Source: Macrocystis pyrifera (Eukaryota; Sar; Phaeophyceae; Laminariales; Laminariaceae). From it: 64,000 nucleotides of DNA. Position numbers and translations under genes: made by a program. Below the pieces are notes generated by a model, which was given only the letters and a program-made list of their open reading frames with translations, was not told where the DNA came from and made no database searches. The stretch covers positions 25,364,539 to 25,428,538 of the forward strand of contig JASSKH010000001.1 of NCBI GenBank assembly GCA_031763025.1. Reading direction: 5' to 3'. Below are positions 1,391-63,590 of this stretch, piece after piece (positions within the stretch are counted from its first letter, which is position 1; every line of letters starts with the position of its first letter).

Positions 1391-1449
1391 CGTGTCGAAC
1401 GGCATACGTGGTCAATGGTCAAATGACTGAGGCAAGCAACAAATGAGTA
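1391..1449 (+). mobile_element. Family A (LINE 3' end) fragment
   Basis: Matches the last ~60 nt of the LINE (GGTCAATGGTCAAATGACT, then GCAAGCAACAAATGAGTA), followed by C-runs. The 5' side is C-rich (1363-1380). Confidence 0.75.
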
Positions 1450-1472
1450 TCCCCCCTACACCCCCCCTATAT

Positions 1473-1975
1473 TATATACCTGGTATATATAGGTTGGGTT
1501 GGCGTCGGTTGGCGACGACGCTGTAAACACGCCTCTCACTGCGTGAGCTAGACAGCCAGGGTACCGTTTCTTAGTTTTTGGTACCACGACTGGTGGTCAA
1601 GTTAGATCATTTTTGTGCGGGGAGAACCTTCACTCCGCACAAGGGGGATGCTCGTATCACGCAGTGTGTATATGGTGGGGCACCCACGAGGCAGTTACAT
1701 GGTAAAACCCATTGCCGTCTCTGGAAGTGGCCACACCAGAAATTAAATCAATTCATTGATGCTGTCATCCATATGCAAGAAAATCCGCTTCTAAAGCAGT
1801 TCTTAGTAGGATGCAGCTCACCCTTCATGCGACTCGCCCAACACTTCACGGCGCTTCACGCTTGGTGCAAGCAATGTCTGCCTGGTTGGTGAAAACCCGA
1901 CGTGCTCCGTCCCGGCATTGTAGGGATGCGAGGGTATATAGTCATATGACTACGGCCATGCACGATAGTGAGTAC
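1473..1975 (+). mobile_element. Family B retroposon, long copy
   Basis: About 500 nt long and alignable over its whole length with 26439-26966 and over most of it with 37135-37545. It ends in GATAGTGAGTACA followed by C18+. No convincing protein is encoded and it is best read as a non-autonomous element. The last ~70 nt align with the LINE 3' end (shared GTGCTCCGTC, GGGATGCG, ATGGTCA, GACTA, ATGAGTAC). Smaller family B pieces not listed separately lie at 7490-7523, 15243-15300 (minus), 18605-18640, 58058-58095 (minus) and 59582-59640 (minus). Confidence 0.75.
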
Positions 1976-2009
1976 ACCCCCCCCCCCCCCCCCCCCCCTC
2001 TTCCCCGCC

Positions 2010-2070
2010 TCCGTGTCGAACGGGATACGTGGTCAATGGTCAAATGACTAAGGCAAGCAACAAATGAGTA
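2010..2070 (+). mobile_element. Family A fragment with giant poly(C) tail
   Basis: The same 3' 60 nt of the LINE, ending CAACAAATGAGTA at 2070, then a C tract to 2206. A C20-class tract flanks its 5' side (1976-1998). Confidence 0.8.
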
Positions 2071-2098
2071 CCCCCCCCCCCCCCCCCCCCCCCCCCCC

Positions 2099-2181
<83 letters not shown>

Positions 2182-4822: not shown

Positions 4823-7800
4823 AAACAAAAACCACCACCACCATCGCCAACGATGACAACAGCAAAACCATCACAGCAGCAACACCACCACCACCACCAA
4901 CTCGTCACCACCCACCAGCAACACCGATATCATCAACAACACCATCAGCCAACACGAAACCGCAATCACCACCACCACCACCGCCAAAATGCAACAACCG
5001 TACAACCGCAACGCACAGCACCGCCCTCGGTGTCTTCGTTCCCCTCCTGCCTACGTACCTCAGGGTGTTCCGTCGCGCGGGTGATGAGCATAAACGCGCC
5101 GTCGTCGAGAGCTTGCATGTGCATCAGGGTGCAGAAGTCGTGCAGCTTTTTCGTGAGGGGCGGTTGGGCCTTGTTCCACACGATTTTCGTGTGCGGCCCG
5201 AGGTGCTCGATGTCGGTCCTGCCCACGCTGTATCTGTTGTGCCGAGGCCGGATCGAAGCATAGGGGTATGTGGATACCATGTCCCCGGAACCAACACGCC
5301 TACCCAAATAGTCGAGTATCGACTACGAGTCGTAAGTAAGCAAGACGGCAAGCACAACCACGCGCAACACAAGACATCACACTACACATATGTACGTACG
5401 TACAAACACACGTGTGCACAAGACACGCAAAATACGTTGATAAAAAAAATCAGAAAACATCAGCTGTTGAGATCGAGGATTTGGTCGAAACTCGTGATCA
5501 TATCTGTAAGCTGTGTGTGATACTACAGTAGATACTACTGATATTCCGATCGCGCGTACTGTGGGCTCTATGATACCTCATGCAGGATATAATACATATA
5601 TATATATCCTTCATTGGTGGGTATACAAACAAGCACATGTGTGTACAAGACACGTATCATACCGTTTACCACGCAAGATAACACGCCTCCCCTCCGAGAC
5701 GATTTTCAAAACCGATTCGCTTCAAACCATGCCTTAGGGGGGGCAACAACAACGACAATGGCAGCTTCGGAAATAACTCGTCTATTAATATTACGGGGGG
5801 CCATAGTAAACAGGACCAAATAATGTTAGTAAAAATAGGTAAATATATAGGTTTCTGTGTGTGCCGTAGGTCCTACATACTATGGACCCCCGTACTAGTA
5901 GATACTTGGATATTTCCATAGACGCGTCGCTCGGCGTTAAAAATATGTTCCCATTGTCGAGGAAACCAGCTTGGCAAATCGTCAGAGGGGGTGTGCTATC
6001 CTATCCCCCTAGTGTGATACGGTATGTATATATCAACACGCGTGCGTTTTCGCTCTTGTGCTTCTCGGGCAGCACATAAATACAAGTTGGGGCGCCTGAC
6101 CCCGGTTGTAGCCTCGTAAAACATGCCAACAAGACGTACATAACCAAAAACATGTGCCGACCCCCGCGAGTGCGCCCGACATTTCTAATGCAGATACAAA
6201 GTGTGCGGAGAATCGGCGGGGTTATACATCTTGCTTGTAGGCAGGGGGCGGGGTGTGTGCCCGACCGACATGGAACACACGGAATAGCGAGTAAGTACCG
6301 AATGACGTACCGAATAAAGTGCCGACGAAGTGCCGACGGAATACCGAGCGAAATATAAAACGAACTATCGAATAAAGTACCGAACGATCCACCGAACAAA
6401 GTGCTCAACAGAGCACCAACGGAATACCGAACGAAGTACCGAAAGAAACACCAAACAAAGCACCGATGGATTACCGAACAAATGAACGAACGCAGTAATA
6501 ACGAACGACGTACCGAGCGAAGGTATCGAGCGAAATACCAAACTGATTACCAAAACGGACCTGTTGTATTCCGACACGCGGGTGGAGTCGACGATCATCC
6601 CCATCACTTCCTCGGCCGAGCCGTCGATGATCCCGCGCGCCTTGACGCAAGGATACTTGTAGCCGTACTCGTCCTTCAGGCCAGGCAACAAGCGAATCAT
6701 CCACCAGCGGCAAAAGCGAGCAAGCATCACGAAACCTCAAGTCTGGTCAACATGCTCACGCGCCCGTGGTAAGAGCAGGCGGTTCTTCTGCTGTTGCAGC
6801 GGGAGCGACGGGTTAAACTGACACACGACACGTATTCTAAAACGTGCAAGTGTGGTGAGCTTAAGCTTTGTTTTTACCAATCTACCGGAGGATTAAAAAA
6901 ATGAGCAAATTTATAAATCAGCGGTAACTAAGGAGCGACACAAGAAAGAAGCAAAACAGACGAAAAATGACTATCGATAACAAACACCGGGCTGGGGACG
7001 AAGCGACAAAAAATACGCGGTAACGATTGGTAAGAAACGGCAAAATAAGAGCGACAAAGAACACTACTATAGATTAAGCGACAACGAAGAAACGACAAAA
7101 CGTTCAAGCAACAAGTCGACGCTTTCATCCATATATACAAGAAATTCCGCCCCTCGAACGGTTCTTAGCAGGATGCAGGTCGCCCTTCATGCGACTCGCC
7201 CAACACCTGGCGGCGCTTCGCGATTGGTGCAAGCAATGTCTGCGTGGTCGGTGGAAGCCCGACGTGCTCCGTCCCGGCATTGTGAAGACGCGAGAATCTG
7301 TGGTCTTGCGACTACGGCCATGCATGACAATGAGTACCCCCCCCGGCATGGAAAAAACGAAATGAGGACCCAAATGTTGGAAGGATCTCTAAAATGAGTA
7401 GGAATTGAGTCCCGTCTCGAAAGTCATGCGTAGTAAATGGTCAAAAGACTCAGGCAAGCAACACAACGAAGACACCGCCCCCTCCCCGGTCATACGACCA
7501 CGGCCATGCATGATAATGAGTACAGCCCCTTTCCCCTCCCCCGTCCCCCCCCCGGTTGACGGGGCCCTGCGTACCCCTAACCTTACCTTGGGAAAGTACT
7601 TCTTCCACACCGTGACACCATTGCGTACGGTAACCTCCTCCCACCCCGGCGTACCCAACGCTCGCTCCGCGCTCTCCTGCTCGTCAATAATACACAATAT
7701 ACAACGAACCGAAGCGCAACATCAATAGAAACCGAATGCACACGAAGTGAAGCGAAACGAAATTAAAAGACCAAAACGGAACGGAAAGGAACCGAACGAA

Positions 7801-10800
7801 ACGCAAAACGAAACAAGCTGAAATAAAAGTACCACAACTTACCACCACCACCACCACTACCATCAACCATACCACCACCACACACCCCCCACCACCACCA
7901 CCGCCACAATCTACCACCACTACCGCTCGCTACCATCCACCGCAAACCACCACCACCACCACACACACCACCCCAACACAACACACTACCGCCGCCACAC
8001 TACCACCACCGCCATCATCCCCCCCCCCCCCCCCCCCCCTCCAAGCCACCACCACCACCACCACCACCACAATTACAACGCCCCCCCTCCCCCCCCAACA
8101 ACCAACACCACCAACACCACCACCAGAAATCAAGAAGAACAAGCCCTACGTACCTGGGCCAACTGCAGCTCGGCAAGGTACCGCACCGTGCTGTCCGACT
8201 CGGCGGCCTCCTCTGCCTGCTGCCCCCCCCTGTTGACGATTGACGAAAACGCGTCTCCAGCTCGTCGAGGGATGTCCTGCGTAACCGAACAAGGCGTTTT
8301 TCCAGGAAGAAATGCGCAGGCAGTAGCCGACGGGGGGATAAGGGGGCGGGGGTTGGAGTTGGGACAAGCATGGACATGGGGGGTTGGGTGGAGGGAAAGG
8401 GAAATGGTGGGGATGGGGGTGAGGATGTGGGTGGCGTTATTCGTAAGGGTGAGGGTGGGTGTGGGTGTGCGGGGGGAGATAGGTGAACACCAAAAACCGA
8501 GATGGACGAGGAAAAATGTTGTGGAGCAAGAGGCGGGGGGGGGGGGGGGGGGGGGGGGGCGTACTCATTTGTTGCTTGCCTTAGTCATTTGACCATTGAC
8601 CACGCATCCCTTTCGAGACGGAGCACCGTTCCTACTCCTAATAGAGACACCTCCAACAATTTGGCGCTCATTACGTTGTTTCCATAAATTACATAGAAAC
8701 TTTTTGCTAATCTTATCCCCTTCCTGTTCGGCCTCCTGTGGCCACCATCTATCTCCTAGGATAGCGATCGTTTTCTCGCTGCTATCCATTGTATCAAACT
8801 CCTCCATGTCACATTCGTCTATTTTCCTCATCTCCTCTTCTAACACATCCCGTTCCTCCTTGCATATTTCACATTCTCCTACTATGTGAGTTCTACTCTC
8901 TATTGCTTTGCCACACGGGCACATCTGTGCGTCTACTTCCTCCTCTTCCCGGCTGCTGGTGTACCTCTTTCTTCTTTCTGGCAGGTCCAGGTCCCCTACA
9001 CGAAATCGCAGTTTCAGCGTTTTCGCGAAGTCCATTGGGCCATGCAAATACGTTTTCATTCCTATTCCTTCCCTCAATCCCCCGTATATCTCTGAAGTGT
9101 TTTTCCGATTCCACCTTGTTTCCTAGCGCTAGCCTTTCCCTTCTTTCTATCCTCTCTTCTACTTCTGCCTTGTACCTCCCAAACTTCCCGGCGGACATCA
9201 TCTCTACTTGGTTTCCCCCTAGATCCTTCCATACTTTCTCAACTACGCCATCCCACCTTATTCCAGCTCGCCCTTTTGATACTTTCTCCCATACAGCTCT
9301 ATCAACTATGGCTGGCAACCTCTTTTTTGGCATGTTCTTTACTTTATATTGCCAGTTCAACTTTCTCATGTCTCTATTTGTCTTGAGTGGGCGCATTCCC
9401 AGTTCTGCTCTTAATACTGTATTACTAGTCGTACTTGAGCATCTTAGGATTTTTTTAGCTGCTGTCATTTGTACTGTTTCCAACTGTTTTACGAGTTTCG
9501 CGTTCCCTTCCCATACTTCTCCTGCATATTCTAGCTTTGGTACTATCACATTAATCAAAGATACATCCCTTAATCCTAATGTCAAGGTTCGGGTCTGTTA
9601 GGATCGCATCCATCTTGCCTACTTGTGCCTTACCCTTTCCTATTACTTTTGCTATATGTGCATCCCAAGAGCAGTCTTTTGAGATCTCTACGCCAAGGTA
9701 TATATACTGGTCTACCATCGGTAGTTCATCTTCTCCCCACTTCCAACTGAAATTTACCGGGTTTACCTTATCTTCGTTGCAAACAACTACTGCGCATTTC
9801 TTGACGTTCGCCGTCACCCTCCATTTCCTGGTGTATCCTAGCGCCTTCTCTATTTGTTTCTGCAATCCTTCGGGTGTTTCTGATATCCCCACGAAGTCAT
9901 CCGCAAACATCAATCCCGACACCGTATCTTCCCCTACCGTGACTCCCTGCCTTGCTCCCTCGACCGCTACTATCAGGTCGTTAATATACATCTTGAAAAA
10001 GTTAGGTGACAACGTACATCCCTGTGCAACACCTTGTAAAATATCAACATACTTCGATATTTCCCCGTCCAGCATCACATCACTTCTCGCACATTCCGTC
10101 ATCTTTTTCATCATTCGGGGGGGGGGGAGTACAGCGATGAGGCGTGTGCCAAAGGGAGGGAAGGGCGACTGTACGGTACGTAGTGTAAAGCGTGAAGCCC
10201 CGCTACCGACAGCGCTTAATATCTCCAAGCAAACGCGCAGCAATACTTCGTTGCGGTGACCGCGACCACCGTGTCCACGCGCTCTTCGATACGCCTCTCT
10301 CTCTTTCCCCGTATATACCCCCCCCCCCCCCCGCCCCCGTTTCTATGGTCATATGACTACGGCCATGCACGATAATGAGTACACCTCCCCCCCCCCCCCC
10401 CCCGCCCCCGCCCCTTCACGCACATACACATACGCCTGCACATACAATACGCGCAGAAAATCCCCCTGGCCTATAGTATAACACGTGTATCCCTCATGAG
10501 GACACACAGCTCCTGTACGTACGAAGTACACGCGTTTGAAGTACAATAAGCACGATCACACCCACTTGTACGCATGAGTTTCGACGAAACCGTCAATCTC
10601 AGAGCCGGTATGTCTTCTAAAATCAAGACACAGCAGTAGTACCCTATACAAAAGGCTGTCGCCAGGCAGTCGCGCAGGAGGAAGTTCGTACGTAATCGTC
10701 GAAAACTTGTTGCGAAATAGTTTTGGAGGGTCGTATGTTAAGTGTTTACGAAACTCGGTCGTTGGACGTGCGATCGTAAAATCGGCCTCAGCCAAGTCGA

Positions 10801-13228
10801 AAGCGGTCCCAACATTTTGGCGCCGTCGACAAAAAATATGCAGGTAATGAAAACCCCTATCAGCTCGAAATTACAACAACAAAAAACGTAGACGTACTTG
10901 GAAAGGCTGCGCCACGTTGTTCAGCACGACCCCGAGTCCATCGGTAGCATAGACCAGTCTGCTCCTCAGCTCGTCCAGGGCTCCATCCCGTCGAAACCCC
11001 CTTGTCCCACGACTTCTGTTGTTGCCCTTCCTACGCCGGCCCTCCCCTCGTCTCCGCGCATCGGCCACTACATCGCCCACTACAGCCTTTTGCGCCAGCG
11101 CGGTGATCTCGCCAAGCCTGGGGGGGTGGGGGGGGGGGGGGTGGGGGGAGGGGTGTATTCATGTCATGCCTGACCGAGTCGAAAGACCATACGTAGACCC
11201 TCGCATCCGTACCATGCCGGGGACGGGGGAGGGGGTTTGGGGGGTGCTCTCGCCAAGCTTGGGAGGAGTCGTCGGGGGTTTGGAGGGGAGCGGGGAAGGA
11301 GGGGTATGGAGAGTGAACTCGCCAAGTCTGGGGGGAGAGGGTGGTGGGGGTAAGGAGGGAGCGGGTATGGTGTGCGATCTCGCCAAGCTTCGGGGGTCGC
11401 GGGGGGGAGGCGGGGGAGGGCGTACTCATTTATTGCTTGCCTTAGTCCTTTGACCATTGACGATGCATCCCTTCCGAGGCGGAGCGCTTCGGGGGGGGGG
11501 GGGGGGGGGGGGCTGGCTGTGAGACCCCCTTCGAGGTGACCGTTGATTAGTGCCACGTAAGCCGTCCGGCAACTCACACCTCACACATGGTGACGACAGT
11601 TACAAATATCCTGCTGCGCGAATTCCTCGCGACAGCTTTCTTATTTCTACAGCGCTTACTTCAGTACAGTATCGGCCCTCTCACAAGAAACCTGAAATCG
11701 GGCTCAGGCTGACTTTCTTATACCGGGGGCGCGCGAAAGCACACTTTCTTATGATGCGTTTTCTATTTTTGGTCCTCCCAGACGACGTTTTCCCGACAAT
11801 TCGTGGTACCAGATAAACCTGGTGGTGCGCAATGATTTGAGTGTGCCTTGAGCCCAGGTCATCCACAGGGAGGGGGTAAACTTTCTATTACGGGGAACCA
11901 TAGTTAACAGGACCTACGGTACACACAAAAAACTATATATTTACCTATTTTTTACTAACAATATTTGGTCCTATTTACTATGCTCCCCCGTAATAGCACA
12001 AACTGCAGTCCCGTTTTAGGGACACACCAGTCTATTTTTAAGTAGTTTATCCCCAAAACGGGGACTGCAGTCGTTTGAAGGGTTAAAAGCATAAATAGTA
12101 GGCACGGACTCAAGTAGTAGGTCATAGCCTGAGAACTTTCTCGTTTATTTTTTGGAAATTTTCAGGCTTTGCTTCCTTGTAAAAGCTACCTTCTTATGAG
12201 CGGAGGAGGTCGGCCGGTGCTGCTGTATTCTTGTATTTTCCACTCTTCACGTTTGACTTTTTCGACGAATTATATCGACGAGCGACATGTCGTTCTGGCA
12301 TTTTGTACACATGAGGCCAATTCTTATGCAGTCGGATACTATCCTGCCTATTGATACGTGAATCGAAAAGGCTGGTTTCTTATCGGATTGTACACGTGAG
12401 AATGAATTTCAACCCATACTTGCGTGATCATCGTATCATACCAGCTCATATGTACCTGGCTAATAGAACGGGCAGGGAGGTGCGCAATGGCCCGGTGAGG
12501 CGCTTTGCCTATCGATCTCGAGTTGCACGTACGCAGCGTACATGATGACGAGTCAAGCGGGAAGCGAGCGGGGGGTGTGCCTCGACGCCTCGACCGAGGG
12601 TTCGCCCTAGGAGCCTCCTCGCCTCAAGAGAGGGAGGGAGGGATGGTCGAGACAAGACCATATTGCAGAGAAAGGAAATAATTTAAAAACCAATGTACGT
12701 GGCGAGCCTGCCGTGTCGTTCGGCTCTACGTACTCGTGCCGATAGGAAAGGAATAAAAAAAAATGAAGAAATGGGCTGCCCTACCTCCTGCTGCTGACTG
12801 TACTGCTACAGCAGTACACACACCTGGTTTACGTCCAAGTACAGCAGAAAAACGCAGAAAGCCAAACCGTCAAACCGTCAAAGGTCGGAAGACCACACCC
12901 GCCCCGCACCTCTGTGAACACAGCTGGGGCGTACGGGCCGTGCAACTGCCGACTACCACTGCTGCTGCTGCTGTTACTGGCTCTGCTGCTGGTTCGGCTG
13001 GGCGTGGCAATACGGAAACTTCGCCTGAGCTCACCGTTCTTCTGCGCGCTCTTCTGGCAGCGTTGGTGTCACAAGGACCAGGTCGTCTTCTACGACAGCA
13101 GAGCCGGACGAAGCACCACCCGTCGCTTGCCAGAGAGGAAGGTCGGGATACGCTGCTGGTACGAGGAGGAGGGCTGCGGGTGCCGCGATGAGCTGGCCGA
13201 TCAAGCTGAGCAGCACTCGAATCTGCAT
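3492..13228 (-). CDS. START-domain lipid-binding protein, 8 exons
   Basis: Exons on the minus strand: 13228-13035, 11117-10898, 8276-8154, 7676-7587, 6673-6561, 5233-5059, 4598-4500, 3634-3563 (or to 3492). Phases agree at every junction and all introns are GT-AG. The protein is about 361 aa as given. Residues 1-35 hold a hydrophobic N-terminal segment that looks like a signal or transit peptide; residues 66-138 include an Arg-rich stretch; from about 185 onward is a START domain with the family hallmarks GVTVWKKYFPK, YPCVKARGIID, VDSTRVSEYNRYSVGRTD, KIVWN, HDFCTLMH, ITRATEHPE, HVRSEILLG and VNHIVSNGVPVMIADR. START domains bind a single lipid or sterol in a hydrophobic tunnel; the ligand here is unknown. 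Exon 8 reads into TAG at 3563 just after an A7 run; a reading one base longer would continue AIDFIQNVE to a TGA at 3492, as the family expects. Intron 2 carries the LINE. The family call is firm, the exact exon 3 acceptor less so. Confidence 0.85.
3935..4160 (+). repeat. TTAGGG-containing tandem array
   Basis: Units of roughly 30-45 nt pair GGTCTGATTGGCT with one to three GTTAGGGTTAGG blocks. Lies in START intron 7, so it is interstitial. Confidence 0.8.
4757..4990 (+). repeat. CAA/CAG/CAC trinucleotide tract
   Basis: Compound microsatellite in START intron 6; it generates long poly-Gln, Ala and His readings that are not exons. Confidence 0.75.
5789..5897. mobile_element. MITE-1 copy
   Basis: About 109 bp palindromic element with TIRs like TTACGGGGGACCATAGTAAA, an interior AAAAATAGGTAAATATATAG, and TA at both ends, compatible with a TA target duplication. 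Non-coding; family assignment (Tc1/mariner- or Harbinger-like) is open. A decayed copy also lies at about 844-908. Confidence 0.8.
7118..7336 (+). mobile_element. Family B, 3' half
   Basis: Starts at GACGCTTTCATCC, about 220 nt from the usual terminus, ends ATGAGTAC then C8. Lies in intron 4 of the START gene. Confidence 0.75.
7370..7463 (+). mobile_element. Family A fragment, decayed
   Basis: Begins at AAATGTTGG, carries GTCCCGTCTCGAAAG and ends AAGCAACAC; its tail is degenerate C-rich text. Confidence 0.6.
7845..8095 (+). repeat. (CCA)n and poly-C low-complexity tract
   Basis: In START intron 3, just downstream of exon 3's donor. Confidence 0.7.
8535..8559 (-). repeat. Poly(C) tail of the LINE (25 nt)
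   Basis: Uninterrupted G run on the plus strand, equal to C25 directly after the sense-strand terminus of the LINE with only GTACG between stop codon and tail. Confidence 0.85.
8561..10116 (-). mobile_element. LINE (non-LTR retrotransposon), 5'-truncated, RT and C-terminal zinc motif (family A)
   Basis: The minus strand encodes the C-terminal part of a LINE ORF2. The reverse transcriptase domain starts inside the palm (LQGVAQGCTLSPNFFKMYIND) and has the catalytic GLMFADD box at about 9895-9915; the thumb region continues with YIYLGVEIS. A Cys/His motif (CPCGK...HIVGECEIC) lies at about 8875-8935. Endonuclease and the RT N-terminus are missing, so the copy is 5'-truncated. The frame changes twice, near 9565 and near 9065, so it is dead. 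The stop codon is at 8567-8565 (sense TGA inside ATGAGTAC) and is followed immediately by the tail: 25 G on the plus strand at 8535-8559, that is poly(C) in sense. A run of 11 G (10117-10127) flanks the 5' side. It lies in intron 2 of the START gene in the same orientation. Confidence 0.9.
11107..11395 (-). repeat. Tandem copies of START exon 2 acceptor edge
   Basis: The true edge (11107-11121, acceptor CAG then GCTTGGCGAGATCACCG in sense) is echoed at 11246-11265, 11315-11335 and 11374-11395, each with CTTGGCGAG-type text behind a C-rich tract. Period is about 60-70 between the three intronic copies. Confidence 0.75.
11421..11492 (-). mobile_element. Family A fragment
   Basis: Minus-strand 3' terminus (GTACTCATTTATTGCTTGCC on plus). 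G-rich tract (11400-11420) on the tail side and a 23-nt G run on the 5' side, so C-tracts flank both ends in sense. Confidence 0.75.
11886..11995. mobile_element. MITE-1 copy next to MITE-2
   Basis: Full length; MITE-2 follows 6 bp later. Confidence 0.8.
12002..12071. mobile_element. MITE-2 copy
   Basis: ACTGCAGTCCCGTTTT and GGGGACTGCAGT arms. Confidence 0.75.
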
Positions 13229-13969: not shown

Positions 13970-16900
13970 ATGCGTAAAACGCTCGACTGCACTGCTGTTG
14001 GTGCTTCTTGACGATATCATCAGAGTATATACTGCTGTTGTCGCTCGAGTTGCAGCATTGAACGCATGGGGCTGCTATCGTAAGTTGCAACCGGGCACGA
14101 AAACACAAATCTTAACGTCTGAATGAAGCAAGTCCCCAAAGGCGGTTGTGTTCGGTCCAGACATCGTATGATGAGCTCTCTCGCACGCACGTGGAGCTTT
14201 CTGGAGAGCCTCGAGCTACGACACAGAGTGACGGAGTACAGCAGTAGCAGTACAGCAGTAACACTGCTGCTGTTCGTGCATGTTGAGCATCACGTCTTTT
14301 TGCTGGTGTAGGGTAATGCATAGGGCTTGGCTCCGGGCGAACGAATAGCAAGGGATACATAATATACGCACAGAGGGAACAGTAGTAAAAATAAGAAAAA
14401 TGGTACACCTCGAAACAGACAAGGTGTGAGCCGTCCTCTTCCCGCGACAGAAGCAGGCGCTCTCCTTTGGCTACAACGAAGCATGGATGTGGGTGGGTGA
14501 CGCTGAGTGACCTACCCCCCCCTCCTGCTCGTCTGGCCCCACCACGCCTCCCCCTCATCCCCTGGTCGGTGAAGACCCGACGTGCTCCGTCCGGGCATTG
14601 TAGGGATGCGAGGGTCTATGGTCATACGACTACGCCCATGCATGACATGAGTATACCCCCCCCGCCCCCCCCCCCCCACCAAAATGTTGGAGGTGTCTCT
14701 ACTACAGCAGGGAGTAGCAACGGTGCTCCGTCTCGAAAGAGATGTGTGGTCAACGTCAAATGGCCAAGGTAAGCAACAAATGAGAACCCGACGTGATCCG
14801 TCTCGGCGTAGTAGCGATGCGAAGGTCTATGGTCATACGTCTTTGGTCATGCGTGATGTCGAGTACCCCCCCCCCCCCCCCCCCCCCCCCCCGCCCCGCC
14901 CCCTTCCGGGGCAACGTTAACGTTTCGGCAGGCCCACGTTGGTCGACTGGGCGAGAAAACAGACGGCGGGTTCTACTCGTGCACCAATGAGAAGACGAAG
15001 CGCATGAAAATGGTGAGGATTTCCGGGTCAGAGCTCAGAGAGCCGCCTGTGCGAGGCTGAAAAAAAAAAACGTGTAGGATAGAATGTAACCGTCGGCATG
15101 TGGTTCCAGTAATACGAAACGGGCTTTTTAGAAGGATGCCGAAAAAAAAAAAAACTATTGCGACGAGCTCTAACGGGAGCCGTCTCAACGCTAGGCACTG
15201 CTACTACGAGGCCAGACAGGGATGGGGATTGGGGGGGGAGGGAGGTACTCGATGTCGTGCATGTTCTTAGTCGTGTGATCATAGACTCTCGTACTCACTT
15301 GGTGCTTGCCTTTGTCATTTGACTATTGACCACGCATCTCTTTCGAGACGTAGCACCCTTCCTACTCCTAATTGAGACATCTCCAACAGTTGAGCGCTCA
15401 TTACGTTGTTGGGAATGGGGGTGGCGTGGCGGGGGGGGGGGGGGGGGGGCGGGGGCGTACTCCTTTGTTGCTTGCCATAGTCATTTGACCGTTGACCACG
15501 CATGCATCCCTTTCGAGACTGAGGGGTGAAATTCGCTCGTCGTGGTCCTGCGTGCGTTTCGTTTCGCGCTCTTGGATTGTTCTGGGGGGCTCTTGCTTAC
15601 CCTGGCAGTAGTTTGTACGTCGGAACACTAAAAATGAAATTCCGGGATTTATCATCAGGAAGGCTCAACAGCAGGGCAGAAAAATTGGAGTCAGGATTGG
15701 GAGGAGGGGGTGGAGGGGGGAAGGGCGGGCGTGGGGGGCGAGGGGGGCGTGTCATGTTTTGGGTTTTTGTGCTGGACGAGCCCCTCCCTTGGCCAGCGAA
15801 ACTAGCAAACGGACACAAAATAGATAAATTACCCCCGAGCATCGACACGGATGTGTTTCGGTTGCGTTTGCAGCATGTATGTACAGAGAAACTCGGACGA
15901 CACAATAAACGGGGGAGAGAAATATAGGCAATAACATATACCAGGTATATATATATGATGGAATAAAACATGGGTCTATGGGGCGAACGTGCCGACGACG
16001 CCAATGTGGGGCGGACGCCCAGGACAGGTTTATCTTCTTGCGCGATTGTTGTGTGGAAAACACGCCGAGGTGGGTCAGTACCTCGGGTCTACACGGCACG
16101 GGATGAAAGCCCGTGGGGCGCAAGCTTGAAGTTGTGTGTGACGAGGCGGTACTATCCGGGGGAAGGGGGCCCTGGTATCCACAGCTCGCTCACAAACCAG
16201 CAATGTTCGCTTTTTTTTCGTGTTTTTGGGACGAAATGTAAGGCAGGCTGATGGCTTATTTTTTAGACGAGTTATTCACAGCAGTACCGCAAGTACGGTC
16301 ACTGGAATAAAGCACGCGCCAGCTGGGAGGCTCAACTGACATGATACATGGTCGATGCTCAACTTTGGAACAGCCGAGTGGTACTTGTAACCCCTACAGC
16401 GGTATCGTTGCGTGCAGCGACACTGATTGGCATCGGGGCAACGCCCAGGCAAAGTTTCCGATAGAGTGCTCGTCACGGTGGTTGCCCCGACTCACCTGTT
16501 TGTGCTGTTCACCATTCAACGAAGCGTTGCGTTGTGTACAGCCGACCTCATCTGCCACGAGAGCAGCGCGTTGTGACGGAGGAAACGATCATATTATGAA
16601 CGGCCCTGCACTCCCGTTTTGGGGACGAGACACCCGAATTCTGAAGTAGTATGTCCCCCCGGAATGGGTATTCAGCCCAAAAAGGGTTGTAGCCCTTCTG
16701 TTACGGGGGACCGTAGTAAATAGGACCTACGGTACACACAAAAAATATACATATTCACCTATTTTTTATACCAATATTTGGTCCTGTTTACTACGGTCCC
16801 CCGTAGTAGTCATGCTTGAGTTCGTACGCATGTACTTGTTTTGATCTTCTTTTTTTGTTTGTCTGTTTGTTTGTTTTGTTGTTTTATCGCAGATGAACCT

Positions 16901-20660: not shown

Positions 20661-21069
20661 ATGGGCGGATGGGTCAAAGCAGGCGTGTCGCCTGGCGGCT
20701 CGAACGGACCCGTCGATCCCCATCCTTCGCCCGGACATGTGCGTGGTGAACCACTATACCGCCGCTTCGCGCCTCGGGTGGCATCAAGGTATGTACTGTA
20801 GGATGATTTTTTTTTGTGCTTTTTTACTCGTACAGTAGTTGATTTCGGGCGGGGTGTGCGATACTATGATACACCTGCGCCGGTCGCCTGTTTGGTTTGG
20901 TATCTTCCACGTGGTCGGCCTCCGCAGCGTTCTTCGCCTTCATCAATCAATTAGCAGTGGCTACTGGAGCCGTCGACCTTCACCCCCTCCTTCTCCCGGC
21001 ATTGTACATAGGGATGCGCGGGCCCATGGTCATACGGCTACGACCTTGCATGACACGAGTACCCACCCC

Positions 21070-21112
<43 letters not shown>

Positions 21113-26166: not shown

Positions 26167-26438
26167 ACTGCGGTTGTAAGAGGTTAGTTAGGATGTATAC
26201 CCGGTACATGGTTCAGATCGTGATTTATTTGTACGAGGCGTGAAACCTTCGCTTCTTCCTTACGGTAAACAGCAGCAGCAACAGCAGCGGCAGCGGCAGC
26301 GGCAGTGGCAGCACGAGTACAGATGGTCAGAAAACTGCAACAAGATTTGACCCATCTCTGGCCCCAAAAAGCCGAGTGTAACGTTTGTTTCCGTATACTG
26401 GTAGGAACACGCAGGAGAACCCTCCCCCCCCCCCTGCC

Positions 26439-50600: not shown

Positions 50601-53600
50601 TAAATCAACCAGATAGACCCAAGTCACATACCGTCCGGTCTTTTTCGATGCGGTACGTACTGGTAGTGATTTCTACTACTGGTGAAGTGGAAATACAGTA
50701 TTTGGGATACGGTGTAGATATATATATACCGCTTGTTATTTTGCTTTAGGAGCGTGATTGTAGTCGGCGTAGATAACCTTTTTACCACAAGATATTCGAC
50801 ACATATTTCTGAGTAGTTCCCTCCCGAAATGCAGCGGGGGTGTGGGCGTATAACACCCAAGAGTATCACGCCCCCTGTGGGATGCAAGAAATGTGTGCCT
50901 GGTCGGTGGAAACCCGACGTGCTCCGTCCCGGCATTGTAGGGATGCGAGGGTCTATGGTCATACGACTACGGCAATGCATGCTATCGAGTACACCCCCCC
51001 CCCCCCTGTGGGATGATTTTCTGAACCGGTTTCATCGATAACAGGGGGGGGGGGGGGGGCAACACGATGAGCGGTGAAATCTCTTCCTGGACGCATTGCT
51101 CGACGTTTGCACTCTCTTCGTTGGAAAGTTGTCGGCGCGGGGGGGCTGTGTTGGCGTGTTTACCTCGCGTGTTATACTATATACGGCGGTCTTCAACTTG
51201 GTAACTTACTTATGTTGCGACGTTCATGCTATGATACTATTTATTAATGTACCTGATGCGCTGTACCAGGTAGATAATTCACCATTTTCCTTCCGCGAGA
51301 AGTGTTTCGTTGTGATTCGCCGAAGCAACAGCGGAACCCGAACAATTTGCGGTAAGCTGCTGTACGCTGCTGTAAAAGTGCAGCAACAACGCTCGTAGTA
51401 ATGCGGCACGGCATAACTACGATTTGTTCGCCTCCGCGGTCGTTCGAGCCTACCAGGTATCTTGTAACCGCGGACTATCACGGGGGACCATAGTAAATAG
51501 GACCTACGGTACACACAAAAACCTACTAGGTATATATTTACCTATTTTTTACCAGCAATATTTGATCCTATTAACTGTGGTCCCCCGTAATAGATTTTTT
51601 TGGCGAGGAGGTGGTACGATGACAAACAACCTGAGCACAAGACCACCAACAGCAAGAGCGAACAACAAGGAAGAGATACGTACTTGGATTTAATGGAATG
51701 TGTATCCCTTCGCACATAGTTGTTGCTGCTGCTGCTGCTGCTGCTGCATGAAGCCGCAAGCTAACGCCCCCCACCCCCCATAGGGATGCGAGGGTCTGTG
51801 GTCATACATACGACTACGGCCATGCATGATATCGAGTACCCCCCCCCCCCCCCCGCCTCTCCCATGGGGTTTCCTGGTCATGGAGGCCCTCCCACGCTCT
51901 ACCCCAGCCCTCCCAAGCCACTCGCGGGACCGCATTTTTTGTCTTATTTTTTCTTCGATACGTGCGAGTAGTGTATGCGACTTGGTCCCGTTTCAACAAA
52001 ATGGTTGGTGCAAGTGGGAGTGCTGAATGAACCCTATGCGCGATGAAAATGAAGGCACGTACCGGGGGGGAGAGGGACGACACCTGTGACCACGGCTTGT
52101 CCAGAAGAAGACCGCTGAGGGTAAAACCTCCTACGTGTTAAGATGGAAGGTGAAAGTGATATTAAAAAAGTAAAAATAAAGCAAATAAATAAATACCTGG
52201 TAATACAAAAATTGCGAACACAAAACTCGAAAATTTAGCTTCGTTCCGAGATTCGACCCCCGCGCGCACGCACGCACACACGATCACGTCTCTTACTATT
52301 AATAGACGAGCCCTTTAATACACACGTAAATAATTGTACGTACAGTATTATACACCGCTCTCACATGATTCGCCGCGAGCATTTCCTTCTGTGAACACAC
52401 ACACCACGTACAGCAGGCAGTTGTGGTCCGTCTGATGCAAGTCCCGGTATGATATGCGGCGGCCAACAATACCGGCACTATTATAGCGGCAACCAACCGG
52501 CACTAATTACTCCGCGCACTGCCACAATGGTCGATCCCATCCGTGCCAAGCGAATCCACAGGCGTCATATAGCGGACAACCGGCACTACAGAAGGATCGC
52601 TACTACTGTACCTCTATATATGTACGACCTCTTGTAAAATACGTCGCCAGTTACCGCGTCTCTTGGTTATAGAAAAAGTACCTGGTACGTACCTGGTATT
52701 TAGGATTTAGGGGTGCGGGGGATGGGGGATGGGTGCTGTGCTCGCTGACATGACTTTCCACCCGTTTTTCTCCGTTTTTTTTTCCCCCCTTTTCCCTGCC
52801 CTCGAAATTCAACAGAACATTGTTTTTGGTCCCATGTGATTGACTGCTGGTCTGTCCTGTTTTTTTCTGCCATGGCTCAGACATTGAGCACCCACTGGTC
52901 ATACTTGTTGTTTATCCTTTCCCCCTTCCCTCGAAAACCAACCGATTTTTGTTCTGTTCCCTTGTGATTGGCTGCTGCTGGTCTGTTCTGTGTTCTGTTC
53001 CCTGTTCCTCCCGCGGCGGTGGAACTTTCTGTCGGCCAATCAGTGAAGAGCTGGGGCACCGAGGGACGCCAGGAGGGTGACCAGCAGATTCCCCCCTTGG
53101 ATCACCTGCATGACCGCGTAAACTTCCGCGGGGAGGACATTAAAGACCTGCACGTTCACGAGGTGGTGTGGGGGCGCATGTTTACGTGTTACGGCCAAAA
53201 GTATAAATGCGAGAATAAGCCGTTCGCCTTCTTATTTTTTCCCCCCCATTTTATAAATTTTGAAATACGTCCCCCCCATTTGTACCACTGCAAAAAAAAA
53301 TACGTTTTCACTTTAATATCCAATCAGTAGGCGGCCTTTTTATCGAGGCAACGAGACGGACAGACAGTGCTGGTTTCGTACGTACGGAAGAAGCCCACCA
53401 ACCAGAATCAACGCAGGGCGTATATGCATGTACCGGTATAGCCTTGACCACCTTGGGGTCGGTTTGTTGCACGAGTGGCTAGCTGCCCCGTGGGCGTAGC
53501 ACGCAGCGGGGCAGACCCAGCGCTGCAGGTCAATGGCGTGATACCACACTGGGCGGAAATATTCGGAAAGTTTACACACTGATATTCACACCAAGCGTTT

Positions 53601-56536
53601 CTTGTATTTCCGGTCGGGTTTATTACTACTACCGGTGGGCATAGTATTACACGCCACCCTGTCCGTAAATACAGGGACGGTTCGAGTATAAATATTCAAA
53701 TAAACGGTTCCTTACATTTTCCGGACAGAGCCGTTCTGGGCAGAACCCACGACGGAGTCACGAGCCATGTGCACCTCCCTACGTTACTAACACACCATAT
53801 AGTCATACACTCGGTCCTGATTACTCTGTTGCCCTGGAATATTGATCGATGCCTGGTAATATATTAATAGTTCGAACTTGAAAAAAAAAAGGTGCACTCT
53901 AATTCCGAGCCGTTTCGTGCCCGGAAGGGGGCTCTGCTTGTTTTCGTGACGTGATACATGGTCGAAGAAATGTACCCACGCTGTAGGGGGATGGACCCCC
54001 AAAAGGGTTTCCATTTGACTATTACGGGGGGACCATAGTTAATAGGACCTATGATATTACATAAAAAAACCTACCAGGTATGTATTTACCTACTTTTACT
54101 AACAATATTTGGTCCTATTTATTATGTTCCTTCCGTAATAGTAGGCGTTAGTGTAGGTTTTGCTTTTTTTGCAGTCAGAAACGGGGAAAAAAAAAAACCC
54201 GGCAAAAAAACGTGCGAATGGCACTCAAAACTCGCGAGCGGCAATCGAAACTTTCGAGTGAAGCGCGTTATGAGAGTGGGGAATGACGATTAGGGGGGTT
54301 TCTGGTTCACAGGAGGCGCTTCCCACCAGGGGGCTCGTTACGATTCCTCGAACTGCACCCGTATACGACTTGGTACGTTTTTTTTTTTTTTCGCGAACGA
54401 AAACATTTAACGCGCGACAGGCGTCCTTGCTGTTTCCTCAAAAGGGCGAAAAAAATGAATTCCACTGTAAAAACACTGCCCTCGCTCTTGCCCCCGACTC
54501 CGCCCCGGTGGGCCGAGCAGGTCCATGGAACCCCCGAAATGTTTTTCGCTCAGTTGCTGTTTCCGTCGTACCACAGCGGCTCTCAGAGGGTGTTGATAGG
54601 CAGCCGCGGTGCAAATATTTACCCTTTTTTTGTGGCGGCCACGCCCCTCTTGCTCTTCCTCTTCCTCTTCCTCTTCCTCTTGCTCTTCTTCGCCCTTGGC
54701 CTTCTTCGCCCTTGCCCTCGGCCTCGCCCTTTGCTCACCTGGTATATATACTCTTTGCCCTTACGCTTACGCTTTCTTTTTGTTGTTGCCCATTTCTGCA
54801 GACCGCGGAGCCCGCTACGCCCCCGCCACCCCCCCCCGCCGCAGCCGCAGCCGCAGCCGCAGCCGCAGCCGCAGCAGCAACAGCAGCAGCGGCAGCCGGA
54901 ATTGGCGCCGCAGGCGAAGCCTCAGCAGCAGCAGCAGCAGCAGCAGCCGCAACATCCTGCAGGGGAGACTTACGATACCCCTTCCCGGGGGTCGACGATA
55001 TCGCCCTCTGCACGCGTGGCCCCTGATACGGCGGCGGGAGCGCGCGGGGGGGGTGATGGTGATGATGAGGCGGGCGAGGGGGGGGGAGGGGGCGCGCCTG
55101 GCATGATGAGGGACCAGGTGGGTGGGTGGATGGATTGCGGGGGGGGGTGCGGGAGGGGGCGACGGTGTTGGTGTTGTTGTTGTTGTTGTTGCTGTTGTTG
55201 TTGTTTTGCTTTTCGCTGTTTTGCTGTTTCCTGTTGTGGTTGCTGTTGGTTTTTTGTTGTTGTTGTTTCTGCTGCTGCTGCTGCTAGCTGTTGATGTTGC
55301 CGTCGCTTGTGTTTTTTTTTTCCCACCACAAAGGGCGCTCTATCCTTTCAGGGCTGCCTTCAGTCCCATTTGGGGGACCAGCTACCTATAATCTGGGTGG
55401 TTTGTTCCCGGAACGAGACTTCAGTTCCGAAGGGTCTAATTATCAACCCTCTCTCCCCTACGAAAAGGACTTGACAGTAGTCCCCCCCCCCCCCCCAACA
55501 ACATGCGTGCGGTAGTAGAATGCTTCGTTGAAGCGCGGGGGTACGTTCCCGAATGCCGGTCGGTGAGGTGTGCCTTCGCCCTCTCCGACGTACGTCTCTT
55601 GTTGACTCCGACCCGACCAACAATATGTCGCCGCCGCAGAGAGTTTTTCACCACTGCCGAGGCGTTTCCGTTGCCTCTTGCGTGGAAAGTATTGTGCAAG
55701 CGTCGAGTGCCCCTCCATTATGGTGGTATATCAACGCGAATACCCTCCGAATGGTGAACGCCATGTTGGAAGCCGAAGGCTTGTTTTTGTTTCCGTTCAT
55801 GACGCTTTTTTTTGGTGCCGCGCCCGGTTTGAATCCCCCCTCACCCCTCGTTTTTTTTTTTTAATCTCTTGTCTTTTGGCGCAGGGCCGCAAGCCGGGGA
55901 GGTACCAGCCGCCGCACAAGAATCCCAACTGGAAACCCCCAACGACGGTGCAAAGGTACGTTTTCACTCCCCGTTTACTTTTTTTTGCGCTAGTTTCTAA
56001 AAAGCCCCCCCCTCCCGTACAAAGCTCAGATCCGGGGGGGGGGTAAACTAATCCCGGTATCTGATGATGCGTGTGCGCTCACGGTTATGACAAGTTATAT
56101 CGAGTTCGGGACTCGAAGACGACGAAGACGACGGCCGACAAACGGTGGTCTTTTTCTGGGCCGTCTACGAGTGTTGGTGCGGGCGCGCAACGGCATGAGT
56201 GGGATTGTGCTGTCCTGGCCGTGTCATGCTAATGAACAAAAGTCCTTGCATTGTAGGGTCGTACGCCAATTTTTCACCCGCCCGCCAAGCAAGCGCCAGA
56301 AAATCAATCAGTCAAGTCGGCGCTTGTCATCCCATGTGCAAGAGAGTCCGCCTCACAAGCGGCTCTTGGGTGGTGCAGCTCACCCTTCGTGCGACTCGCC
56401 ACAACACGTCATGGCGCTTCGTGCTTGGTGCAAGCAATGTCTGCCTGGTCGGTGAAAACCGGACGTGCTCCGCCCGGGCGTTGTAGGGATGCGAGGGTAT
56501 ATGGTCATACGACTACGGCCTTGCATGATAATGAGT

Positions 56537-56575
<39 letters not shown>

Positions 56576-59500
56576 GCAAGCAGTGACCGATGTTGTTGTC
56601 ATTTGTCGACACCAGTTTTTTTTTTTCTTTTTCTCGGCCTTTTCGCGCATGTCTGGTACAAACAGCGTACAGTTCGCGCATAGACACGAACCAACAAACA
56701 AACGCGCATACAAACACAATACAAGGCCCACTTGGCACAAACAAACAAACAAACAAAACGACGCGCGCGTGCAAACAAACGAACAACGCACGTTTGTCGT
56801 ATGCACATCAAAACGAAAAACTTTGGTGGCGCGCAAAAAAAAAAAACAGCACAACGCACATCTCATGCGCATAACGCATACGAACAAACACACAAGAACT
56901 ATTTTTTTTTTCGCGCATACAAACACACCAAACGCGACTATCTCGCGCATACAAACGAGACACTTAAACCTATTTTTTTTTCGCGCATACAAATACACAG
57001 CGCGCATGTCGCGCATGCGAAAGAACAGGGGCCGTGCAGGTCCCGGAGGTGGCGTGGGATCCGGCAGCACCGGAGCTTTGAAGACCCTTTTTAGCACCAC
57101 AGTCCCGTTTTGGGGACAAACTACTTGGAATTAGACTGGTTTGTCCCCCGAACGGGATTGCAAATGCCTCACACAACGGGGTGACGAACACTTTTCGCCG
57201 CATTCAAAGAAAAGCGCGAAGGCACATTTAGCGCATACGAAACAAACGCGCATACAATCACGACGCCCATTTTGGCACCCACAAACAAGTCTTATACCCG
57301 AGATAGATGTAAGCACCGTTTGGATACTGTATGTCTGATCCGAACGGTCCTTCTATCTATGGGGACATGAATTAATAGTGGCACAACACGAATCAAAACA
57401 CCCCCGACAGATTTTTTTTTTTTTATTTTCGCGCATACGAAACGCAACCCAACTTTCTCACGCGCATACAATTTGAAAAAAATGAAAATGATACACGAAC
57501 ACACGGGGCCCCTCCGGTTCCCCGAAGCCGCGCGGGGTCCGGCGCAGGAGAGAGCTTCGCCGGAACAGCAAAACCAGCTTTTAAAAAATATTCGCGCCTA
57601 TACATGCGGGCCCCCCCCCCAAAAAAAAAACAAATAAAACAAACAAACAAACAACCGAACGGACAATTTATTCCGGCGGATACAAAGCAAAACAAAACCA
57701 CCCCTCAACGGGTTTACCCCTTTTTTTCTCTTTTTTTTTTTTTTTTTTCGCGCCTGCGAAAAACACAACGCACAACGCAACATTTTTCTTACGCGCATGT
57801 ACAATTGAAAACGAAGCAGGGGCCCTCCGGGCCCCGGGAGCGGCGCTGGGTCCGGCACCGGAGCTCTGCCCGGACAGGGAAACCACTTGCTCAGCAGGCG
57901 GACGCGGGGCGCGGGGGGGGGGGGGCCGCTGGAGGAGGAGGGCGACTTCGACTTCGAAGCAGGTCTAGCCAAGTTCGACAAGGAGAAGGTGGGTTGAGGA
58001 TTTCTCGCTCGTTTGGCGGCGGGAGGGGCGGCGGGAGAGAGGGGACGGAGGTGTACGCGGTATCATGCATGGCCGTCGTCGTATGATCGGGGGAAGGGGG
58101 GGGGGGGGAGGAGGGGATACTTTTTTGTTGCTCGCCTTGATCGTTTGTCTGTTGACCATTCATCTCTTTCGAGACCAAGGGGGGTAGGGAGCTATACTCG
58201 TGTCATGCATGGCCGTAGTCGTATGCCACCAAGCGCGAAGGACCGTGATGTGTTCGGCAAGTCGAATGAAGGGCGAGCTGCATGCATCCCACTAAGAACC
58301 GCTTGTGAGGCGGACTTTCTTGCATGTGGATAACATCGTCGAATGAATTGATTTGTGTTTCGGTTTTTGGGGAGGTTGTTGCGTAGCTGAGCGCGGCCTG
58401 GGGTGGAGGGGGGGGAGGTGGAGGAGGGTTTGGATGGGATGGCTGTGTGGAGGTTTGTGTTGATGTTTTGTTTTGTTTTGTTTTGTTTTGTGAGTGCGTT
58501 TTTTGTGTGTCGGACGGTTGATCACTGGGTACCCTTTGTTATCGCTGTAGCTGTAGCTGTTGTTGTTGTTGTTGTTGTTGTTGTTGCTTTGGTTATTGCC
58601 GTTGTCACCGTTGTTGATGATGTCGAAGTTATCGTCGTCGATTTACGCTTTGATTGAGTCACTAAGGCCGGGTAAGGGTAAGGTTTGATCCGGACAGCGC
58701 CCTGACGAATTACTCACCAGTCTGTCGAGAAGCTTCCGCATGGCATGCGTGCCACCCCCGGATGATTGACAGCCGCATGCCCACGCTCGTTGAATACCGC
58801 GCTCTGCGGACAAGCCGGTCCTATCTCCGTTGTTCAAACTCTGGTGTGCTCTTTCCTTTCCCCCTCTCCCTCTCCCCCCCCCCCTCCCCCTCGTGCTTCT
58901 ACCCGCCCCCCCGCCTCCCGTCCGAAACCCCTCGCTTCTCTCCTCCCTCTCCCTCTCCCTCTCACCTCCCTCCCTCCCTCTCCTCTTCCGAAAACAACGT
59001 CTTTATTTTGCTATGTCGACACGGTTTTACTGCCAAAATGTAAACGAAACAAAACGCTGCGAGCCCAGGAGATGGCCTTGCTGGCGGGTGGCCTTTCTTC
59101 GTCGTCTTTGTACGACGGCAGCAACCCTTCATCCTCGTCCGAGGCGAACGGTGGCTCAACGATCACATCGGACACCGTATCTAACGGCATTCTTGAAGGA
59201 GGGGATACGGGTAAATCGTCCCCTACCCCCGCAGGAGAGGAGGAGGCAGCGGCGACGGCTGCGGGTGAGGTTGGGGGCGGCGAGGGAGGGGTGGGGGGAG
59301 GGGAGGAAGGAGGGGGGGGGGGGGGGGGGGGGGTTAGTGTCGGCGACGGGCGAAGGGGAGGAGGAGGCGGATGGGGCGGGAGGGGGGGCGGGGGGGGGGA
59401 GGGTCCGCCGCGGCGACAGGGGAGGCAGCAGGGGGGGGGAGGCGGAGCGGCGCCGACGGGGGTGGGGTGTGGGTGGAGCCTCCCATGGTTGTGAAGAAGT

Positions 59501-61748: not shown

Positions 61749-61869
61749 GTGAGCTGCTTGTAGTGAACATGACTATTTTTGTACTTGCCAGCACATTTAT
61801 ATTGTTGCACATCCTTTGCGGCGGAAGAGGATCTAAATCATGATAGTGTCCAAGGTTACACTGCTGTTC

Positions 61870-63590
61870 CACACGGCGACGAGCGTTGTCCCCGCGGTGG
61901 GCAGCAGGCGTTATAGGGGGCGGAGAGGGGGGGAGGGGGCGTAACGGTTTGTTGCTCGCCTTCGTCAATAGACCAGAGGGGCGGGGGGGAGGCGGGTTAC
62001 TCGGTATCATGCATGGTCGTAGTCATGTGGCCATAGACCCACGCATCCCATAGCCGGGACGGAGCATGTCGGGTTTTCACCGCCCAGGCATACGTTGGGG
62101 AGGGGGGGGGGGGAGGGAGCATGTCGGGTTTTCACCGACCAGGCATACGTTGGGGAGGGGATGGGGCGGTTACAACGGTTACTCGGTGAGCTTGCGTCTT
62201 GGGTGCTACTCTCACCGAAAATCTCCGACCGAGAGTATACCTCCCATTTGGACTCTGGGGTCAATGTCAAACAAGTGACTATATTTCCGGCCAGAGTTGT
62301 GCGAAATGACACCCAATTAAAACACCCCCCCTAGATGAGCGTGGGTTTCCACGTTGGCTTTTCTCGACGAGGTGGACAGTGGAAGAACGCCGAGCGATGA
62401 TGCGTCTACTGGACTAATGTCGACGATATATTTTTTTCCGAAGCCACCTTCCCGCTCGTTCTGGACAAAAATCGTGGTGAAAATTCGATCCTGAGGGCGT
62501 GTTTCCTTGCGTGTTGTACGCTTAACACGGTAACATATTCATTATCTGGTATATAGAGGTACGCGCTACTGCTCTAGTTCTAGCGACACTAAGGGAAACA
62601 AAAACGACAAGGAATCTCATACTAGTATACCGTATCATATGACACACGGGTGAATTCCACCTTTGGGCAACAAAACAATGAATATTCATGCCTCGAAAAT
62701 CACAGCACGGAGCTTATCCACGTGACCGCATCAATGTTTTCAAGGGGAATACATCTCCGTGAAGCTAGTGTTTGGTGTGCGAGCTGCAGTACGTGAGATA
62801 TGGGAATTGTTCGTTTCTTGGGCAGGCGTTGTTGCATACCTGGTAGGGATTTAAGGCGTCTGTACGAAAACCCCTGCGATTCTCCTTCGAGCCTTAAATC
62901 GGCCAATACGCGAAATATTTCGACACTATTAATAGACGTGTGGAAATGATCGCATCACAACAAGTGGAAGACGTCCATGATACTTGCTTCGTTGTACGAG
63001 CCGTATAAGCCTTTTTTTTAAGAAACGCCTACCTAAGTACTTGAACAATGCACTGAGCTCTTGGAAACCCTAGGGGAACTCTTTACTTTCACGGAAGTAA
63101 CTTTTGCACCGTCGTAGAAAACGACTTGATAGACGAAATTTGGCAGAGGTGGCGTTCTTCATGGCCATACGAAAAAAAAAAAAAACGTCACTTGGGCTTT
63201 TTCTATTTACTTATTTTTTCGTCCGTAAGTTTCGGTCAAAGTTGCCGAAAAATAGAAATCAAAAACCCGAAATGTGCCTCCTCAAGGAAGAAAAATCTCT
63301 TTTGAAAAAAGGCTATGTGTGTCGTTTTTTCGTATGGTCATGGAAAACAACCCTGCCAAATTTCGTTTTCCAACTCGTTTTATACAAGGGGTGCAAAAGT
63401 TTGAAGCCGAAAAGCTTCAGTTTCGAACCAGCTCGTAGTATACCAGTGGTATGTATGATACTGTAATATACTTGATACATGTGTACTCTGTTTCCCAACG
63501 GAAACGAGCGTTTTCCTCTCGACGGGCAGCAGGCGTTGTAGGGGAGGGGGGGGGGAGGGGGCAGTTGTAACGGTCAGTCGGTGAGCTGCT
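61870..63590 (+). repeat. Copies of the LSM14 FFD/TFG exon donor edge
   Basis: The true edge is 61668-61755 (GCGACGAGCGTTG to TACTCG then GTGAGCTGCT). Copies: 61872-61945 (no donor), 62157-62200 (TACAACGGTTACTCGGTGAG) and 63505-63590 (CAGTCGGTGAGCTGCT). Confidence 0.75.
61998..62102 (-). mobile_element. Family B fragment
   Basis: TTACTCGGTATCATGCATGG to CCAGGCATACGTTGGGG. A second short piece of it (62120-62156) is joined to a copy of an LSM14 exon edge. Confidence 0.6.

Follow-up and report, generated by a model that had tools for sequence, protein, structure and literature searches.

Do a long interspersed nuclear element (LINE) and a short dependent partner in the giant kelp Macrocystis pyrifera end in tails of cytosines, and are tracts of the same base the places where they insert? 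The question is raised by a stretch of 64,000 nucleotides (nt; C189:25,364,539-25,428,538), hereafter the window, in which copies of the LINE (family B) and of its partner (family A) lie on both strands. A reading made from the letters alone (the sequence-only reading) had claimed that these copies share a fixed 3′ terminus, that nearly every one is followed in sense by a C-run, and that many also have a C-tract on the 5′ side. Genome-wide counts were obtained from an assembly (537,376,219 bases, 223 sequences) that the available part of its description gives as 537 MB in 35 scaffolds and 188 contigs, built from PacBio data of a haploid female gametophyte (PMC10498591). The abundant, strand-specific pattern is real and is confirmed here, and the testable parts of its interpretation are supported; the mechanism itself we infer.

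The fixed terminus, ...ATGAGTAC, is kept by 36 non-redundant A and B copies in the window, and is followed either by a single base (mostly G in family B, A in family A) or directly by a C-run. In total, 158 three-prime ends were located, and both flanks were readable in 140 of them, the remainder being without a border or a flank. Fifteen of the 140 copies had been picked by a C7 pattern, that is, selected for a tail, and were left out of the flank counts. The remaining 125 comprise 36 copies from the window, 24 from a random sample, 45 and 14 from slices of consecutive listed exact matches to the A and B ends, respectively (exact matches, and therefore young copies), and six from LINE loci. 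With the 5′ borders re-drawn, a flank was scored when a C-run of at least 5 lay inside 40 nt on either side, in the sense orientation of the element. By this measure a C-run was found on the 3′ side of 118 copies and on the 5′ side of 84, whereas a 5′ G-run was found in 0/125. The window alone gave 31/36 (3′) and 24/36 (5′), and the window plus the random sample 54/60 and 37/60. The wording 'nearly every' thus holds for the 3′ tails, while for the 5′ tracts the proportion is about two thirds. All eleven sites for which a 5′ C-tract had been listed (2010, 2446, 10343, 11421 minus, 14680, 18605, 32599 minus, 37564, 45902, 51779 and the LINE at 10117-10127) do have one at or near the border.

These frequencies are far from background, since random 40-mers from a 200-kb genome sample contained a C-run of at least 5 in 5.2% of cases and a G-run in 4.1%. 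A control set of MITE-like (miniature inverted-repeat transposable element-like) repeats of about 110 bp, a family seen for example at window 17464-17572, was taken in both orientations (45 copies, window plus 200-kb sample) and had C-runs in 3/45 left flanks and 0/45 right flanks. When copies whose 5′ flank resembles the end of another copy were dropped, a 5′ C-run was still found in 73 of 108 (starting from all 140). The seven copies lacking a 3′ C-run, as we read them, either pass straight into another copy (three) or are C-rich with shorter runs (four). The longest run within 110 nt has a median of 12 in family A and 14 in family B, with a maximum of 106, and some tails are interrupted. 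Because the 3′ C-run is more constant than the 5′ one, the tail looks element-borne, and the 5′ C-tract looks like a strong preference and not a requirement.

Genome-wide, the copies are likewise mostly C-tailed and not tailless. NCCCC stands directly after 2,414 of the 3,363 exact A ends (72%) and after 3,131 of the 3,856 exact B ends (81%), with 0 in the reversed-pattern control for either family, and ATGAGTACCCCCCC has 5,106 matches versus 20 for the pattern read backwards. The copies are not wholly independent, in that some A ends sit in a tandem array and small contigs hold duplicates. On contig C125 of assembly G000, between about 1,506,507 and 1,656,057, exact A ends are spaced mostly about 11 kb apart, like a tandem array with one A copy per unit (ends at 1,506,507; 1,517,366; 1,528,519; 1,555,547; 1,566,549; 1,577,697; 1,588,557; 1,599,721; 1,610,869). 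Three locus pairs (L004/L009, L005/L011 and L006/L010) have near-identical flanks (about 95-100% identity), as duplicate or allelic stretches of the assembly, and in each pair at least one member lies on a small contig.

The copies of the window that show these arrangements most clearly are the following:

1388..1450, plus strand: B of 63 nt, with C9 upstream at 1366-1374.
1469..1975, plus strand: full-length A that starts shortly after the C-rich end of B 1388-1450, with the tail C22 at 1977-1998.
2009..2071, plus strand: B of 63 nt, lying within the tail of the A copy that ends at 1975; behind it come C28, A, C82, TA and C23.
7070..7337, plus strand: A with C8 at the 3′ end; the 5′ flank is not C-rich, a counter-example to the 5′ tract.
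11422..11485, minus strand: B with the target-site duplication CCCCCGAAGC (in sense) at 11486-11495 / 11387-11396; target C22.
14561..14866, plus strand: A-B-A nest in a single orientation, C27 at its end.
15245..15523, minus strand: B-B-A nest in a single orientation.
20985..21363, plus strand: A with C42 in its tail, the next A (21129-21363) starting behind it.
26435..26963, plus strand: near full-length A (about 530 bp), C11 at 26424-26434 on the 5′ side and C16 at 26967-26982 on the 3′ side.
32599..32671, minus strand: A with C-runs on both sides.
37129..37546, plus strand: A behind B 37024-37087, with C19 at 37546-37564 and then a further A at 37564-37712.
45900..45962, plus strand: B with C7A on its 5′ side.
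50883..50992, plus strand: A with the target-site duplication CCCCCTGTGGGATG at 50871-50884 / 51002-51015; target C5, tail C13.
51781..51839, plus strand: A with C-runs on both sides.
56272..56538, plus strand: A with C36 at the 3′ end; the 5′ flank is not C-rich at the called border.
58053..58354, minus strand: A-B-A nest in a single orientation.

A two-block tandem repeat with a 22-bp unit also lies in the window, at 30787-31274.

Family B is the 3′ end of a LINE with an apurinic/apyrimidinic endonuclease (APE), of which the window holds one truncated copy:

8561..10116, minus strand: 5′-truncated LINE copy with an RVT_1 match (E 1.3e-10) and homologues that have the same ending.
9551-10116, 8893-9597 and 8568-9092, minus strand: pieces of its open reading frame, in differing frames (three-frame reading).
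8565-8567, minus strand: its stop codon TGA, within the terminal ATGAGTAC.
8535..8560, minus strand: its 3′ tail, in sense a G and then C25.
10117..10127, minus strand: C11 tract (in sense) abutting its 5′ side.

The reading frame closes ...VVNGQMTKASNK, and because its TGA stop lies inside the terminal ATGAGTAC the LINE has almost no 3′ untranslated region. In a further copy (L099) the frame spans 1,020 residues; it is open at the left edge of its stretch and broken about 730 nt ahead of the 3′ terminus. This frame contains a PF03372 endonuclease at residues 77-229 (E 8e-11, 42.5 bits versus a cut-off of 24.5), and the reverse transcriptase domain PF00078 was found above its cut-off with E-values of 1.1e-30 and 1.4e-29 (the latter in L099); in the same kind of profile search PF14529 scored under its cut-off. 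Among the 239 homologues listed (the best 120 of 225 and the best 120 of 1,083, one protein being common to both), 47 reach the end motif, 40 of which stop exactly there (36 in K) and two short, while five (P0020, P0128, P0148, P0153 and P0158) continue beyond it with coding that is rich in Pro and Ser and hence in C. Relatives with algal names among the matches listed come from Ectocarpus and Sphacelaria. Four proteins with bacterial names, from Parasphingorhabdus, Reichenbachiella, Ekhidna and Algoriphagus (P0003, P0240, P0247 and P0249), are 79-95% identical to the kelp LINE pieces and are probably kelp DNA inside bacterial assemblies. A protein scan of viral contigs found no relative.

The 5′ ends, described earlier as variable in the manner of target-primed reverse transcription, are indeed truncated: a 175-residue C-terminal piece of the protein gave 17,967 first-look candidates and a 166-residue piece of the endonuclease and linker 1,148, both figures being loose candidates of which 150 were scored per piece. 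The B copies include a length class of 60-69 nt (13/40; window 1388, 2009, 45900, 11485 minus and others) with the truncation point around GTGCTCCGTC, a truncation hot spot that may represent a pause site or a mini-element.

Family A is about 530 bp at full length and non-autonomous. When 20 A and 15 B ends were aligned, the proposed common 3′ end of LINE and partner was borne out, in that the last ~65-75 nt are common to both families; family A therefore is a LINE-dependent, non-autonomous partner by the shared 3′ end. At its other end no small-RNA head was found: ARAGORN detected no tRNA, and none of 34 Rfam matches in the window reached the gathering score. Full-length A copies carry an internal T run. 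As a short interspersed nuclear element (SINE) in the strict sense, with a small-RNA-derived head and an RNA polymerase III promoter, family A does not qualify, A and B boxes not having been searched for. A short hairpin fits both families, with two-sided change in one of seven predicted pairs only. Doubled termini (GTACATCTCTCCTATCGAGTACACCC or GTACGTACGCCC) were seen at L012 6794 minus, L014 2150, L014 4242 and L052; GTAC is doubled at the L052 end, and one form of A ends in a doubled ATCGAGTAC. These doublings point to slippage or to template jumping at the end of the RNA. Exact patterns of both element ends had 0 matches in viral contigs, and a pattern scan of genome contigs gave three bacterial matches, which were taken for chance.

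The target-site duplications show which came first, the C-tract or the element. Duplications joining the two flanks with a score of at least 7 were found in 14/140 copies, versus 1.7 in shuffled pairings; of these, three are open to doubt, two being tandem repeats in L073 and one a distant match in L075. Fifteen duplications were placed, including those of L033, L065 and L097 by eye and that of L094 from the first, strict-trimming search. That first automatic search (score of at least 5 in 7/51, versus 1.35 expected) was set aside, its strict tail trimming having swallowed C-containing duplications. A C-run of at least 5 stands within 25 nt ahead of the duplication in 12 of the 15, which agrees with the proposed preference for C-tracts; because it stands ahead of the duplication, the C-tract in these copies predates the element. 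Furthermore, the longest run of the tail exceeds the target run in 11 of the 15, as in a LINE piece (L054) with C8 TTCCACG ahead and C13 TTCCACG behind, or in a 3.5-kb 5′-truncated LINE (L033) with C10 ATGCTCCAA ahead and C22 A ATGCTCCAA behind, and two copies (L077 and L098) have tails with C17 and C22 although a target run of 5 is absent. Since the tail run is mostly longer than the target run, and in view of these last two tails, the evidence points to an element that brings C's in addition to preferring C-tracts as targets. A C-run belonging to the 5′ end of family A itself was also considered (in L088, C8 separates the duplication from the body) but is unproven, a target C-tract explaining most such copies. 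The 5′ truncation and the variable-length duplications are those of a LINE, and microsatellite targeting appears as a preference only (84/125 5′ flanks, 12/15 duplications).

The claim that copies insert into the tails of other copies also held. In the window and the 200-kb sample, all 14 pairs of copies at most 80 nt apart have the same orientation and none the opposite one. Such one-way nesting would be expected if a tail, with its direction, serves as the target. The broader proposal that the elements explain the C/G homopolymers of the genome stands in part: 50 of the 115 C/G runs of at least 10 in the same DNA abut an annotated copy in register, and the other 65, which may have another origin or belong to copies not annotated, adjoin none.

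Several observations weigh against a C-tailed, C-tract-seeking pair. Besides these 65 runs, a C-run of 5 is missing from the 40 upstream nt in 41 of the 125 copies, two A copies lie inside other repeats with no C-tract at the 5′ border, and NCCCC does not directly follow 28% of exact A and 19% of exact B ends, although the 40-nt measure is satisfied by nearly all. Among neighbours 81-500 nt apart, six pairs have the same and two the opposite orientation. In 3/15 placed duplications the target run is longer than the tail run, and in 1/15 the two are equal. The duplications themselves were placed in about a tenth of the copies, some by eye, and in L065, L088 and L097 the called border lies 5-20 nt away from the duplication. 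Of two candidate empty sites checked within the sampled DNA, neither was clean. Finally, a convincing fold was not seen in the shared 3′ end (z-scores -0.68 and -0.05).

Taken with these reservations, the arrangement is probably, and we hold this with good confidence, the product of target-primed reverse transcription of LINE and partner, with a G-tract primer pairing to a C-tail that the element itself carries and with the tails serving as new targets. The APE-type endonuclease would nick the G-strand of a C/G tract, and the G-ended 3′ hydroxyl would pair with the C-tail at the 3′ end of the RNA and prime cDNA synthesis on LINE and partner RNA alike, the LINE protein presumably recognising the last ~65-75 nt that the two RNAs share. 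The C-tail of the RNA could be copied from the tail of the source element or be lengthened through slippage of the reverse transcriptase, slippage being a candidate source of C's because doubled termini occur (GTAC in L052, ATCGAGTAC in family A). Each insertion would leave a same-facing new C-tract as a target for the next. We lean slightly towards a fuller version as well, in which a poly(C) tail on the RNA takes over both roles of poly(A), recognition end and pairing partner for a G-tract primer, this primer is cut by the APE endonuclease of the element itself, the frame runs to the last bases, and each insertion makes the next target and so seeds C-homopolymers through the kelp genome.

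A first alternative, which we regard as a tentative possibility, is that the elements had short C-ends at insertion that were later grown by replication slippage, as in microsatellite birth. The wide spread of run lengths and the interrupted tails would fit such growth; it accounts for length, however, and not for the C-tracts ahead of duplications or for one-way nesting. It is unlikely, secondly, that the C-tail is just the 3′ half of the target tract, with an RNA ending in GUACG or GUACA, without C's, that was inserted mid-tract and left C's on both sides. This would explain why copies flanked by C-runs on both sides are common and why a C-run precedes 12 of the 15 placed duplications, but the 5′ tract is less regularly present than the tail (84 versus 118 of 125), the tail run exceeds the target run in 11/15, and L077 and L098 have long tails with no target run of 5. 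That C-runs are general in the non-coding DNA of this genome and the elements lie there by chance is very improbable: C/G runs are frequent and 65/115 long ones adjoin no annotated copy, yet the idea is contradicted by the 5% of random 40-mers, the 3/90 flanks of the control repeat and the 84 5′ C-runs versus 0 G-runs. An assembly artefact of long-read homopolymer errors is scarcely credible, since even if the precise length of a run and the reality of some frame shifts are in doubt in what its available description calls a PacBio assembly (PMC10498591), the existence of the runs is independent of their exact length, and five homologous proteins on public contigs, some of which may be of the same species, read into C-rich coding at the corresponding point.

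A pair of elements with element-borne C-tails and a preference for C-tracts would demonstrate that tail and target can be swapped as a set, and would thus directly test the idea that target-primed reverse transcription is guided by the pairing of tail and primer. Part of the C/G homopolymers of the kelp genome would find their source in this pair, and family A would be a non-autonomous element that spreads via a common 3′ end, a small-RNA head not having been found. With thousands of copies in a single assembly and relatives in other brown algae, the system would be accessible to comparative and biochemical tests.

Open-licence literature among the matches listed, supplements being outside its scope, contained no description of a poly(C)-tailed LINE or SINE. 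The pair is of a known kind, a LINE and its dependent partner; what is unusual is its tail and its target, and priority is uncertain. Closest to it are the Ectocarpus RTE-X LINEs RTEX-1 and RTEX-2_Ec32 and their partner of about 600 bp, RTEX-N1_Ec32, as described in the accessible portion of that account (PMC12477816): a brown alga, an abundant LINE, and a non-autonomous element of similar size that shares its 3′ end and has a 5′ region of unknown origin. That portion, compared with the kelp pair by description, does not mention C-tails or C-tract targets (PMC12477816). In the kelp Saccharina japonica, RTE-1 to -3 and RTEX-1 are reported, some of them called recently inserted and likely active, and the part of that paper at hand mentions neither tails nor targets (PMC4421812). 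The assignment of the present LINE to RTE-X is putative and follows the Ectocarpus and Saccharina papers. Its protein piece shows 53-68% aligned and 60-70% local identity to the Ectocarpus proteins P0034, P0051 and P0062.

Compared with L1 and Alu, which target T/A-rich sequence, the kelp pair has C/G instead of A/T, and its LINE and partner have a common 3′ sequence. The logic of pairing between a homopolymer tail and a homopolymer primer is the same as for L1 and Alu, whose use of poly(A) is described in the available text (PMC3747384). The LINE tails named in the papers considered here are poly(A) or A-containing repeats. Insertion into simple repeats is also known from Togen, at (TG)n, and from some HERO families; Togen, however, is NeSL-related and belongs to the restriction-like-endonuclease group according to the part of the source available, whereas the kelp LINE is of APE type and a C homopolymer is both its target and its tail (PMC4640811). 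In eel UnaL2, a stringent-type LINE with TGTAA repeats, LINE and partner likewise have a common 3′ end, and the terminal repeats are ascribed to template slippage in the accessible part of the account (PMC3747384). A conserved 3′ hairpin such as that of UnaL2 is not demonstrated for the kelp pair (two-sided change in 1/7 pairs), and the UnaL2 repeat contains A, whereas the kelp tail is purely C and C-tracts are the preferred target as well (PMC3747384).
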